DNA of 64,000 nt from Lachnospiraceae bacterium (GTDB taxonomy: Bacteria; Bacillota; Clostridia; Lachnospirales; Lachnospiraceae), in the NCBI GenBank assembly GCA_017468395.1, contig JAFUIR010000011.1, positions 1 to 64,000 on the forward strand, written 5' to 3'. Below, piece by piece: positions 56,973 to 61,069 of this stretch (the stretch's first letter is position 1; every line of letters begins with the position of its first letter). A program made the translations under genes and the position numbers. The notes beneath the pieces are model-generated. The model saw nothing but the letters and a program-made list of their open reading frames with translations. It was not told where the DNA came from and did no database searches.

Positions 56973-57048
56973 GTCATAAAGTTACTTTTGTGGTAAAATT
57001 TAGAAAGTATGTTTTTATAATCACATTTAAAATGGACGGATGTTAATT

Positions 57049-57849
57049 ATGGACTTTTTTTATAGTAAAGAACAATTAAAAACACAATTAAAAGATATGG
57101 GACTGAAATCGACAGATGCGGTAATGATTCATTCCTCTATGAAAGCAATCGGTCATGTGGAAAATGGAGCCGATGATGTGCTGGATGCCCTGATGGAGTA
57201 TTTCTCAGAAGGGCTGCTTATGATGCCTACTCACACATGGAAGCAGATGAGCGAAGAATATCCTATGTTTGATCCCGAGACAGAGCAGGCATGTGTAGGA
57301 CTTCTTCCTAATATGTTTATGAAAAGGCAGGGTGTTTACCGTTCTTTGCATCCCACTCACAGCATTGCTGCATACGGGGCAAAGGCCGAAGAGTATGTGA
57401 GAGGAGAAGAAAATTTGTCAACTCCCTGCGCACCGGAAGGCTGTTGGGGCAGGCTGATGCAGGAAAACGCAAAAATTTTACTTATCGGCGTGACTCACAC
57501 CCGTAATACTTATATTCACGGGGTGGAGGAGATACTGAATGTGCCGGAGCGGCTTACGGAGAAACCTGTGGAATTCCAGGTGAAATTGCCGGATGGCACA
57601 TGGAAAAAAGTAAATATGCATAGACACTACAACCGGATTTCAGATCATATATCGGAAAATTACGATATTATGTTGGAAGGTTATTTTGAAACCGGTGCAG
57701 CAAAAAGGGGAAGTTTTGGTAAGGCACAGTGCATCTTGTGTGACGCAAGAAAAATTTATGAAGTTACCAAGAGAGTAGCTTCCCATAATCCTAATTTCTT
57801 TATTGAATGTACCTGTGTTCCCCGGCAGTGGTACATGGAAGATAAATGA
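57049..57849 (+). CDS. AAC(3)-family N-acetyltransferase
   Basis: A 266-residue protein of the aminoglycoside 3-N-acetyltransferase/YokD fold: VMIHSSMKAIGHVENGADDVLDAL, MMPTHTW, HPTHSIAAYGAKAEEYV, PEGCWGRLMQENAKILLIGVTHTRNTYIHGVEE. The acceptor substrate is unknown; chromosomal YokD-like members need not confer drug resistance. ATG at 57049 is nine bases after GGACGG; an ATG at 57040 abuts it. Single gene. Confidence 0.88.
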   Translation: MDFFYSKEQLKTQLKDMGLKSTDAVMIHSSMKAIGHVENGADDVLDALMEYFSEGLLMMPTHTWKQMSEEYPMFDPETEQACVGLLPNMFMKRQGVYRSLHPTHSIAAYGAKAEEYVRGEENLSTPCAPEGCWGRLMQENAKILLIGVTHTRNTYIHGVEEILNVPERLTEKPVEFQVKLPDGTWKKVNMHRHYNRISDHISENYDIMLEGYFETGAAKRGSFGKAQCILCDARKIYEVTKRVASHNPNFFIECTCVPRQWYMEDK

Positions 57850-57855
57850 AAAAGG

Positions 57856-57884
57856 TTGACATCTCATTTTAAAAAATATACTAT
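57856..57884 (+). promoter_or_regulatory. Promoter of the amino-acid ABC transporter operon
   Basis: Perfect TTGACA (57856-57861), 17-bp spacer, TACTAT (57879-57884), 45 bases before the lipoprotein start. Confidence 0.8.
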
Positions 57885-57929
57885 GACAATGAGTGTTTAG
57901 GCACAAATTTACATTTAAGGAGAGATATT

Positions 57930-58778
57930 ATGAAAAAATTATTGGCAACAGTACTTGCTATGGTTATGGCAGCAACGATGTTGGTAGGATGCGGTTCCAG
58001 CGATTCATCCGCAGAAAAAGTTAGGGTTATTGAAATTGACCTTACTCAGGAAGAGTATGCATTTGGTGTTGACAAAACACAGCCTGAGCTTCTGGAAAAA
58101 ACAAATGAGTTTATCGCAAAAATTATGGAAGATGGTACATTTGATGAAATTTGTAACCATTACTTTGGTGATGGAACACCCGTTGCAGTAAAATCCGCAG
58201 CACTTGATGAATCTAAAGATCAGCTTGTGGTTGCAACAAACGCAGCGTTTGCACCTTTTGAGTATACAGAAGGCGATAATTTCTACGGTATTGATATGGA
58301 AATCGCTGCCGAACTTGCAAATTACCTTGGAAAAGAACTGGTTATCCAGCACATGGATTTTGATGCAGTTTGTTTGGCAGTAGGTCAGCAGAAATGTGAT
58401 ATTGCTATGGCTGGTCTGACAGTAAAAGAGGACAGAAAAGAGTATGTAAACTTTACAAATTCCTACTACAATGCATCCCAGAAATTGATTGTATTGGCAG
58501 AAGATACAACTTTTGATGCTTGCAAAGAGGCAGCAGACGTAGAAGCAATCTTAAATGGTTTTGACAACAGCGTGAAAATCGGTGTTCAGAACGGAACAAC
58601 AGGTCAGTTCTATGTAGAAGGTGATGCAGAATGGGGATTTTCAGGTTATGCAACAACATGCATCGGTTATAAAAACGGCTCACTTGCTGTACAGGATCTG
58701 ATTAACGGAAATATCAACTATGTAATTATTGACTCTGCTCCTGCAGCAGCGGTTGTAGCAGCAATTAACGAACTTTAA
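57930..58778 (+). CDS. Amino-acid ABC transporter substrate-binding lipoprotein, circularly permuted
   Basis: A 282-residue lipoprotein (lipobox LVGC, cysteine at about 21) of the SBP_bac_3 family. The order of segments is rotated. Residues about 30-80 (LTQEEYAFGVDKTQPELLEK ... DGTFDEICNHYFGDG) correspond to the usual C-terminal end of the fold. The usual N-terminal start LVVATNAAFAPFEYTEG appears only at about residue 93, followed in normal order by YGIDMEIAAELANYLGKEL, CDIAMAGLTVKEDRKEYVNF and GVQNGTTGQFYVEG. The protein stops at YVIIDSAPAAAVVAAI, where other members continue. It heads an operon with the permease and ATPase and follows AAGGAGAG. Confidence 0.93.
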   Translation: MKKLLATVLAMVMAATMLVGCGSSDSSAEKVRVIEIDLTQEEYAFGVDKTQPELLEKTNEFIAKIMEDGTFDEICNHYFGDGTPVAVKSAALDESKDQLVVATNAAFAPFEYTEGDNFYGIDMEIAAELANYLGKELVIQHMDFDAVCLAVGQQKCDIAMAGLTVKEDRKEYVNFTNSYYNASQKLIVLAEDTTFDACKEAADVEAILNGFDNSVKIGVQNGTTGQFYVEGDAEWGFSGYATTCIGYKNGSLAVQDLINGNINYVIIDSAPAAAVVAAINEL

Positions 58779-58795: not shown

Positions 58796-59506
58796 ATGGC
58801 AAATTTTGACCGTAAGGTAGAGAAATTTATTGATATACTGATTAATAAAAATGGATATGTGCAAGTTTTGGAAGGTTTGCAGAACACGCTGATTATTGCG
58901 GTTTTGGGTCTGATTATCGGTACCGTTATCGGTACGGTCATCGCCTCTGTCCGGGTTATGCCCAAATACAAGACCTTGCCTAAAATTTTAAACGGAATCT
59001 GCAGTTTTTATGTGGAACTTTTCCGTGGAACCCCTATTGTGGTGCAGTTACTGATATTTTATTATGTGCTGTTGCCTGTTATAGGAATTAAGATGAACGG
59101 TGTGGATGTATCCATTTTGGTATTTGGTCTAAACAGCGGTGCTTACATATCCGAGATGATGAGGGCAGGTATCCTGTCTGTGGATTCCGGCCAGATGGAA
59201 GCGGGACGTGCGGTGGGTCTTAGTTTCTTTACAACTATGGTCAAAATCGTAATTCCTCAGGCAGTTAAAAATATTCTGCCTACGCTGGGTAATGAATTTA
59301 TTGCTCTGATTAAGGAAACTTCTGTTGTCAGTTTCGTAGGCGCAGCGGATTTGTATGTGGCTTTCAATTTGATTGGTACAAACAGTTACGAATTTATGGT
59401 GCCTTATCTGGCGATGGCAATTATTTATGTAGTGATTGTCCTGATTATCAGTTTTGGTATTAAGATGATGGAAAGGAGCCTGCGAAAGAGTGATAGACGT
59501 AATTAA
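58796..59506 (+). CDS. Polar amino-acid ABC transporter permease (HisM/GlnP type)
   Basis: A 236-residue membrane protein with about five helices: [78 protein letters not shown] (EAA coupling region) and [26 protein letters not shown]. It forms the channel for the lipoprotein-bound amino acid. It overlaps the ATPase gene by 17 bp. Confidence 0.95.
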
Positions 59507-60275
59507 TCTGAAAAAGAACTTTGGCAATGTGGAAGTCTTAAAAGGCATCAATCTCACTATCAATAAGGGAGATATTGTGGCTGTTATCGGACCTTCCGGC
59601 TCCGGAAAAAGTACATTTCTTCGCTGCCTGAACTGTATGGAGGACCCTACAGCCGGACAAATTATTTTCAATGGTGTGGATATTGCAGACATGTCCGTAG
59701 ACATCAATGTCCATAGACGTCACATAGGAATGGTATTCCAGCATTTCAATCTTTTTAATAACAAAACCGTTATTGAAAATATTATGCTGGCGCCGGTTCA
59801 TGTAAGATGTCAGGAACTTAAAAAAGCAAAAAGAAAAAAAGGTGTAGATAAAGCCACTCTTCCCACCAAAAAGCAGATAAAGGAAGAGGCAAGAGAGCAG
59901 GCAATGAATTTGCTGAAACGCATTGGCCTGGAGGATAAAGCGGATGTTTATCCCGCAACCTTATCCGGCGGACAAAAGCAGCGTGTGGCAATTGTAAGAG
60001 CTTTGGCCATGAATCCGGACGTGATTTTGTTTGACGAGCCTACCAGTGCATTGGACCCGGAAATGGTCGGGGAAGTATTGGATCTGATGCGCGCCCTTGC
60101 AGAAGAAGGCATGACCATGATTGTGGTTACCCATGAAATGGGCTTCGCCAGAGAAGTGGCAAACAGAATCCTGTTTATGGATGACGGACTGATTTGCGAA
60201 AGCGGCGATCCGAAAGAATTTTTTGCAAATCCCAAGACAGACCGCGCAAAAGAGTTTCTGTCGAAGGTGTTGTAA
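59490..60275 (+). CDS. Polar amino-acid ABC transporter ATPase (GlnQ/HisP type)
   Basis: A 261-residue ATPase. Walker [17 protein letters not shown]-loop region [10 protein letters not shown], signature [17 protein letters not shown], Walker [15 protein letters not shown] and H-loop [10 protein letters not shown] Lys-rich insertion of about 20 residues ([18 protein letters not shown]) precedes the helical domain, absent from most GlnQ proteins. The start is a GTG at 59490 after AAGGAG, inside the permease gene, so translation is coupled. Confidence 0.95.
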
Positions 60276-60295
60276 GTTATAATAAGAGATTTGAA

Positions 60296-60325
60296 AAGCT
60301 AGGTATGAAAGTACCTAGTTTTTTG
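60296..60325 (+). terminator. Terminator after the ABC transporter operon
   Basis: CTAGGTA-TGAAAG-TACCTAG followed by six T. Confidence 0.88.
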
Positions 60326-60383: not shown

Positions 60384-60410
60384 TCTGCTATTGAAAGGAG
60401 GTAAATGAAA

Positions 60411-60674
60411 ATGATAGTAGATAACGCAAAAGTAATGTCTAAGGGTCAAATAACATTACCAAAAGAAATAAGGGTGCAATTAGGCATAGATACAGGAGAC
60501 CGGGTGACGCTAATTTGTGAAGGAGATCAAGTAGTTATGATGAATGCTGCTGTTTATGCCATGAAAATGCTTCAACAAGGAATGGCCGGAGAGGCAAAAA
60601 AAGCAGATTTGACAACTGAAGAAGATATTAATGCTCTAATAAAAGAGATGCGAACAAAAGAGGAGGAAGTATGA
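60411..60674 (+). CDS. AbrB/SpoVT-type antitoxin
   Basis: An 87-residue protein. The N-terminal swapped-hairpin DNA-binding domain is VDNAKVMSKGQITLPKEIRVQLGIDTGDRV with a following strand pair. The C-terminal acidic helix (about 55-87, LTTEEDINALIKEMRTKEE) would wrap the toxin. ATG at 60411 is nine bases from AGGAGG; an ATG at 60405 is only three away. It overlaps the PIN toxin gene by 4 bp. Confidence 0.9.
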   Translation: MIVDNAKVMSKGQITLPKEIRVQLGIDTGDRVTLICEGDQVVMMNAAVYAMKMLQQGMAGEAKKADLTTEEDINALIKEMRTKEEEV

Positions 60675-61069
60675 GGGTATTAGTAGATAGTAACATTCTG
60701 ATATCTGCAGCATTAAATGCCAAAGGGACACCTTATAAAGCCTTTTTAAAAGCGGTTACTTATCCAAATAAAGGGGTGATATGTTCGCAGAATCTCGAAG
60801 AATTAAGAAAAATATTCTATAAAAAGTTTCCTAACAAAATTGGTTTATTAGAGCAGTTTTTGTCCATTGCATTACTTGCCATGGAAGTAATTCCAATACC
60901 ATGTGATGCAATGGATGAAGAAAGTTTGGTAAGAGATAAAGCAGACAGACCGATTCTAAGAGCAGCAATCGCTGAGAATGTGGATGTTATAATAACCGGT
61001 GACAAAGATTTTCTTGAATCAGGAATAAGAAAGCCTAAAATCATGACAGCATCGGAATTTCTAAATTAA
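60671..61069 (+). CDS. PIN-domain toxin (VapC-like ribonuclease)
   Basis: A 132-residue PIN protein. The acidic active site is visible: VDSNILISA (D6), a glutamate in SQNLEELRKIFYKKF, the D in RDKADRPILRAA and ITGDKDFLES (two Asp). It matches the 'toxin component, PIN family' group and probably cleaves RNA when free of the antitoxin. ATGA overlap with the antitoxin gene ensures coupled translation. Target RNA unknown. Confidence 0.9.
   Translation: MRVLVDSNILISAALNAKGTPYKAFLKAVTYPNKGVICSQNLEELRKIFYKKFPNKIGLLEQFLSIALLAMEVIPIPCDAMDEESLVRDKADRPILRAAIAENVDVIITGDKDFLESGIRKPKIMTASEFLN

Follow-up and report, generated by a model that had tools for sequence, protein, structure and literature searches.

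The lipoprotein gene at positions 57930-58778 of the window, the 64,000-nucleotide stretch of Lachnospiraceae DNA analysed here, raises the question of whether a binding protein of the SBP_bac_3 class can carry its ordinary parts in a rotated order and still work beside its transporter partners. In ordinary members of this class the chain runs H1-H2-T, where H1 and H2 are the two blocks of the head and T is the tail. The 282-residue product of the window gene, as read from block profiles and phmmer alignments, has the order T-H1-H2 and is thus a circularly permuted SBP_bac_3 lipoprotein. The gene lies on the + strand, as do the other parts of its operon described below, and begins with an ATG that has AAGGAG 5′ of it; a ribosome-binding site, AAGGAGAG, is recognised by eye at 57917-57924. 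Also by eye, residues 1-21 (57930-57992) form a signal peptide ending in the lipobox LVGC (residues 18-21), and C21 is invariant in 27 of 27 aligned rows. The window protein therefore has what defines a bacterial lipoprotein, a signal peptide with a lipobox cysteine.

The rotated order is recognisable in searches with both domain profiles and solved structures. The Pfam SBP_bac_3 profile (PF00497) matches the window protein significantly (5.2e-30, 104.3 bits against a cut-off of 26.4) in two passing stretches, the top one placing residues 99-226 on positions 1-98 of the 132 in the profile. Phmmer aligns residues 98-276 with positions 11-175 of the solved structure of AncQR (4zv1) and residues 31-81 with positions 183-233, with i-Evalues of 9e-18 and 0.0028, respectively, which places the C-terminal block first. 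Since AncQR has 233 residues, these two stretches cover all parts of an SBP_bac_3 protein, in an order other than the canonical H1-H2-T. Block profiles, built from 44 rotated rows (the window protein and 43 relatives), find one T (residues 30-83), one H1 (96-198) and one H2 (212-281). The initial annotation had proposed a rotation in which nothing is missing, and the swapped-order matches to AncQR, together with the single occurrence of T, H1 and H2, uphold this proposal, with nothing but a loop lacking. A second full copy of the terminal block, named beforehand as the result that would speak against a permutation, was looked for in the window protein with the block profiles and is absent.

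By phmmer and block profiles, T, which is ordinarily the end of the protein, occupies residues 29-83 (58014-58178). A 12-residue linker (residues 84-95, 58179-58214), delimited by the block profiles, connects the old C terminus to the old N terminus. H1 (residues 96-198, 58215-58523) is the first part of lobe 1 and contains N104, F107, F144, T164 and R169, while H2 (residues 212-282, 58563-58775) represents lobe 2 and contains T223, T224 and D268. In the alignments the chain ends close to where T would ordinarily start, and T starts close to where the chain would ordinarily end.

The window protein has this order in common with 45 relatives (L002-L046) and with all 80 named loci, the latter kept from 487 relatives. 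Members of both sets were taken because they matched best or over nearly the full length, and 12 proteins, compared by their last 250 residues, belong to both, so the counts show a genuine, conserved order and do not give its frequency. An artefact of a single assembly is excluded by the recurrence of the order in these loci and relatives. Among the matches to solved structures that were listed (best 60 of 87, 60 of 90 and 60 of 96), none is to a protein already permuted, and only the tandem structure 6h30 aligns through the permuted order. This structure, of the tandem domains of GlnPQ, has T followed by H1 at the junction between its domains, and window residues 43-271 align across it to 187-395. 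Unlike the window protein, GlnPQ has two full domains of ordinary order rather than a permutation of a single domain.

The site of the cut can be placed by alignment to TmArgBP. In the domain description of PMC7589609, domain D1 of this protein comprises residues 20-114 and 207-233, and the KKS motif is located at 232-234 in the sequence given in PMC4022495. Adding 18 to the chain numbers of 6svf gives the published TmArgBP numbering, as checked by eye at the KKS motif. Window residues 92-278 align with 6svf 3-175, and the tail of the relative L059 aligns gap-free with 6svf 162-226. When both alignments are extended without gaps, the two new termini fall at about TmArgBP residue 197, between the two fragments of D1, which would put them in D2 (lobe 2), about 10 residues ahead of the second crossing, where the chain passes from lobe 2 to lobe 1. 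With its termini in this position, T would carry the last strand of lobe 2, the second crossing and the C-terminal part of lobe 1, a lobe assignment that comes through the TmArgBP alignment. L059 itself has a second rotated order, H2-T-H1. Its C-terminal match stops at 6svf 102 and its residues 32-144 align with 6svf 114-226, the start of the other half; since its halves split at 102/114, the cut in this order lies past the first crossing, also in lobe 2. Since both new termini of the window protein fall in lobe 2, its lipid anchor would be shifted there from lobe 1. The initial annotation had instead moved the anchor to the helix that ends lobe 1, a placement that the TmArgBP alignment, with both termini in lobe 2, contradicts.

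Directly 3′ of the window gene are the two partners expected of an intact operon, as the initial annotation had seen. Based on Pfam and NCBIfam, they are a single permease of 236 residues (58796-59506; BPD_transp_1 / HEQRo_perm_3TM, polar amino-acid type) and an ATPase of 261 residues (59490-60275) whose top NCBIfam match is GlnQ, below the cut-off of the GlnQ family. The strong promoter of the same annotation does not hold up. The candidate, a sigma-70-like TTGACA-17-TACTAT at 57856-57884, matches the consensus at 10 of 12 positions, but the region has six promoter-like sites against 7.1 ± 2.1 in shuffles, and promoter strength, being no better than chance, was dropped as evidence. A candidate terminator-like hairpin 3′ of the operon (60292-60325) comes from a sequence scan that found four such sites against 2.0 ± 1.8 in shuffles. 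The operon is flanked directly 5′ by a gene of the Antibiotic_NAT (aminoglycoside 3-N-acetyltransferase) family at 57040-57849, assigned by family match only, and directly 3′ by a MazE-type antitoxin and PIN-domain pair at 60405-61069.

Proteins of the same order are not confined to the window. A nearly full-length T-H1-H2 orthologue is found in 32 of 299 genomes of the family sample (31 of 298 genera; E 1e-76 or better), in 15 of 101 genomes of the window's own genus (1e-120 or better) and in 26 of 391 genomes of the class sample (1e-89 or better), each count including the window's own genome. The class matches are spread over six family codes (f1, f10, f55, f65, f66 and f79), while a phylum sample of 299 genomes, searched at 1e-25, has full-length T-H1-H2 proteins in two genomes, both already counted. 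By title, the named relatives are from Lachnospiraceae and further clostridia, with Eubacterium ruminantium FB3002 (L159) and Acetatifactor among them. In the window's group the permease and ATPase genes lie directly 3′ at 72 of 80 and at 60 of 68 loci, and among the other T-H1-H2 loci they do so at 10 of 11. At L014, L015, L021 and L045 neither gene is found 3′ of the binding-protein gene, despite enough sequence; a few other loci lack one of the two, some of which can be hidden by mechanical ORF starts.

Comparison of the window gene with L002-L004 gives dN of 0.12-0.15 and dS of 1.6-1.9, the latter near saturation, values that indicate purifying selection on this group. In the rotated set A1 (27 rows), N104 is nearly invariant and F107, F144, T164, R169, T223, T224 and D268 are invariant, and these positions are also kept in the rotated set A2 (10 rows) and the ordinary set A3 (9 rows). 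The SBP_bac_3 signature (Asn/Asp, two Phe, Thr, Arg, Thr, Asp) is thus invariant or nearly so in both orders. We take N104, F107, F144, T164, R169 and the other signature positions to have the binding-site roles of their counterparts in GlnH and LAO. Within T, E41, Y43, K49, L54, N59, G69, I74 and Y78 are invariant in 27 of 27 rows. An hhalign comparison of A2 with A3 returned the H1-H2 stretch only.

The strongest support for a circular permutation comes from another clostridial genus, g354 (family f45), because ordinary and rotated relatives are found there at the same locus. The binding-protein gene is present in 74 of 78 g354 genomes. In 20 of them the match to a rotated query starts from residue 1, and in 54 it starts from residue 81 or later, as expected for the ordinary order. 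For 13 of these 54 the order was read by profile and for the other 41 from where the match lies; two in the count, G818 with a short frame and G837 with a long one, are less certain. Block profiles of 35 g354 loci give 20 T-H1-H2 and 15 H1-H2-T, the latter being the 13 just mentioned and two g354 genomes outside that sample. Ordinary L251 and rotated L258 and L259 have the genes on both flanks in common, while rotated L260 has different upstream genes. Between L251 and these three rotated loci, amino acid identity is 82-85% over the H blocks and 69-85% over T, compared with 68-73% for the permease and 83-88% for the ATPase, and DNA identity is 80-85% over H and 75-81% over T. In g354 a single locus can thus hold either an ordinary or a rotated copy, next to partners of one kind, and the rotation is one between orthologues. 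These pairs are far from the window's clade, the window T being 20-25% identical to that of rotated L234-L236 and 31% identical to that of ordinary L249.

The g354 genes also suggest how a rotation may arise in place, by a tandem duplication after which the first copy lost H1-H2 and the second lost T. In rotated L259 the signal peptide matches that of L251 and is joined straight to T, and the linker retains the spacer FTTVE-GKL, which stands before H1 in L251; together these are the residue expected from a duplication plus two losses. By eye, no remnant of T is seen 3′ of three rotated g354 genes, and a duplication intermediate was not found in this genus. A tandem protein, L064, shows that such arrays of binding domains exist in the family, and the older clade of the window may have arisen by the same duplication route. 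In the binding-protein tree of g354 the nine closest ordinary copies (98% SH-aLRT) are nested among rotated copies (forks 89 and 93), and their position in the permease tree is a different one. Given this nesting and discordance, the change may have run in either direction, and reversal or gene exchange may have taken part.

The second order, H2-T-H1, is also widespread. Block profiles of 250 loci, a set picked by similarity that holds duplicates and whose counts are not frequencies, give 159 T-H1-H2, 50 H2-T-H1 and 35 H1-H2-T ORFs, one three-fold tandem and 11 partial ones. An H2-T-H1 query matches 64 of 299 family genomes at 1e-45; nearly full-length collinear matches are found in 61 (61 of 298 genera), a count that excludes G129, G266 and the tandem G294 and has been read by profile only partly. 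Twelve of the 50 H2-T-H1 ORFs have lengths of 499-527 residues, and each of them matches the window permease. In these proteins (L065-L074, L081 and L246) the H2-T-H1 domain is fused N-terminally to a permease. The tandem protein (L064:3410-6313, genome G294) has 967 residues, with three near-identical tandem binding domains, (H1-H2-T)x3, fused to a permease. A different fusion is found in L075:2537-4657 (G330), a protein of 706 residues whose N-terminal domain is a Ser/Thr kinase. By eye it probably also has a membrane segment, and its outer part carries T at residues 442-494 and H1 at 509-610; the profiles find no H2. This kinase may sense amino acids via the rotated binding domain. A search with the kinase matches 37 of 200 genomes at 1e-60; since all listed matches fall inside residues 1-427 and miss the binding-domain part, the kinase fusion is represented by one protein.

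Considered as a whole, the window gene very probably encodes a working polar-amino-acid-binding lipoprotein that is a natural circular permutation. T would fold back within the same molecule via the 12-residue linker and complete lobe 2 with its last strand and lobe 1 with its C-terminal part. The resulting ordinary two-lobe clam would bind an amino acid between its lobes and hand it to the permease, driven by the GlnQ-like ATPase. Since there is one permease gene, the permease is probably a homodimer. T could instead act in trans, each T completing a neighbouring molecule in domain-swapped dimers or membrane chains. TmArgBP dimerises by a swap of its C-terminal helix, as described in PMC4022495, so a part of the tail can act in this way; however, the linker between T and H1 looks long enough for closure within one chain, and the fact that rotated proteins alternate with ordinary orthologues next to permeases of one kind speaks for a unit that has stayed the same, which makes action in trans improbable. 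That the rotated gene is what decay has left of a tandem-domain protein like L064, with T a leftover and the binding protein without function, is hardly credible, even though such a protein exists in the family: T has its eight invariant positions, the dN and dS values point to purifying selection, the operon is retained at most loci and the binding-site positions are kept.

A natural binding protein in rotated order thus remains the preferred reading, and the question becomes how often rotation has occurred. The rotation described in the initial annotation is real and not a lone case; two orders exist, and the tree test speaks against a single event. In FastTree and quick IQ-TREE trees, built with the blocks set in one common order and without L084-L163, T-H1-H2 proteins fall in several places. 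One is the window's clade, close to which lies the long-branched L227. Elsewhere L228-L233 group with ordinary L250 and L234-L236 with ordinary L249, while L046 is placed with three ordinary proteins, L047, L192 and L196. L228-L233 form a second rotated group (family codes f21, f22, f32 and f53), with L250 (f13) as an ordinary relative and a possible comparison pair. Well-supported branches force four changes of order label for T-H1-H2, which may be gains or reversals. The first IQ-TREE had 32 T-H1-H2 rows, the rest of the window's group being left out; 26 of these (without L003, L010, L013, L024, L037 and L045) and 21 chosen ordinary rows were used in the one-clade test, which rejects all T-H1-H2 proteins as one clade (p-AU 1.4e-5), with the group named after the trees had been seen and long branches present. 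For H2-T-H1 the same test gives weak evidence against one clade, with p-AU of 0.039 (26 of the 50 H2-T-H1 rows and 20 ordinary) and 0.0145 for an inner set (18 and 18). A single T-H1-H2 rotation, spread by gene transfer and exchanging parts with local ordinary genes, would explain why the cut of every group lies in one loop, at positions only a few residues apart, and gene exchange is suggested by the discordant binding-protein and permease trees in g354. The H1 of L046 is nearest to that of rotated L232 (75%, against 72% for ordinary L047), and the T of L232 is nearer to ordinary L165 (70%) than to L250 (66%). Against a single rotation stand the rejection of one clade and the behaviour of g354, where T and H1 both side with the local ordinary gene: L235 is 65% identical to ordinary L249 over T and 86% over H1, but 48-52% and 68% identical to rotated L228, L232 and L233. 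A single origin is therefore rather unlikely. It is conceivable, and offered only tentatively, that circular permutation is a recurrent, ongoing and functionally tolerated change in clostridial amino-acid-binding proteins, with at least four well-supported T-H1-H2 topology changes (gains or reversals) and separate H2-T-H1 origins, each kind having its cut in lobe 2. Rotated and ordinary copies would then alternate as interchangeable versions of one locus, and the repeated choice of lobe 2 would reflect selection on the attachment of the anchor or of a fused permease.

GlnH, TmArgBP, AncQR and other SBP_bac_3 proteins have their blocks, binding-site positions and type of operon partner in common with the window protein, but GlnH, TmArgBP and AncQR have the order H1-H2-T and an N terminus on lobe 1. 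Among the papers listed in searches of the open-access literature, none describes an SBP_bac_3 protein that is naturally permuted. The one natural rotation of a binding protein found in print belongs to another class of these proteins. It is Tp0684 (TpMglB-2) of Treponema pallidum, a glucose-binding lipoprotein whose permutation is seen in a crystal structure and for which glucose binding and conformational change have been demonstrated; the same paper gives homologues from Gram-positive gut bacteria as well as from treponemes, and anchoring, too, is a subject of speculation by its authors (PMC4990184). Like Tp0684, the window protein has the same parts in rotated order in a natural protein, and both are ABC binding lipoproteins. 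Tp0684 has the type I / cluster B sugar-binding fold, its permutation concerns the strands of the N-lobe and comes with a fourth crossing, and its moved part has poor sequence similarity, whereas the window protein belongs to SBP_bac_3, is cut in lobe 2 and has a recognisable moved part. Pfam and NCBIfam matches of the window protein are to SBP_bac_3 and amino-acid families rather than to the sugar-binding family of type I / cluster B. The anchor of Tp0684 presumably stays on the N-lobe. Ordinary counterparts at the same locus, in a group related to the window protein, mark a further contrast with Tp0684. Permutation of a binding protein is thus already known, and what differs here is the SBP_bac_3 class and the apparent cut in lobe 2.

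Most natural circular permutations come to light in retrospect, when distantly related proteins are compared. The pairs of ordinary and rotated proteins in one genus are the most useful part of the present finding, since at 82-85% identity over the head blocks they make the effect of rotation on folding, binding, anchoring and docking measurable. Domain searches detect rotated proteins only in part; Pfam, for example, gives one stretch in each g354 form, covering profile positions 1-107 of 132 in rotated L258 and 1-130 in ordinary L251. The repeated cut in lobe 2 raises a testable question about where these proteins place their anchor.
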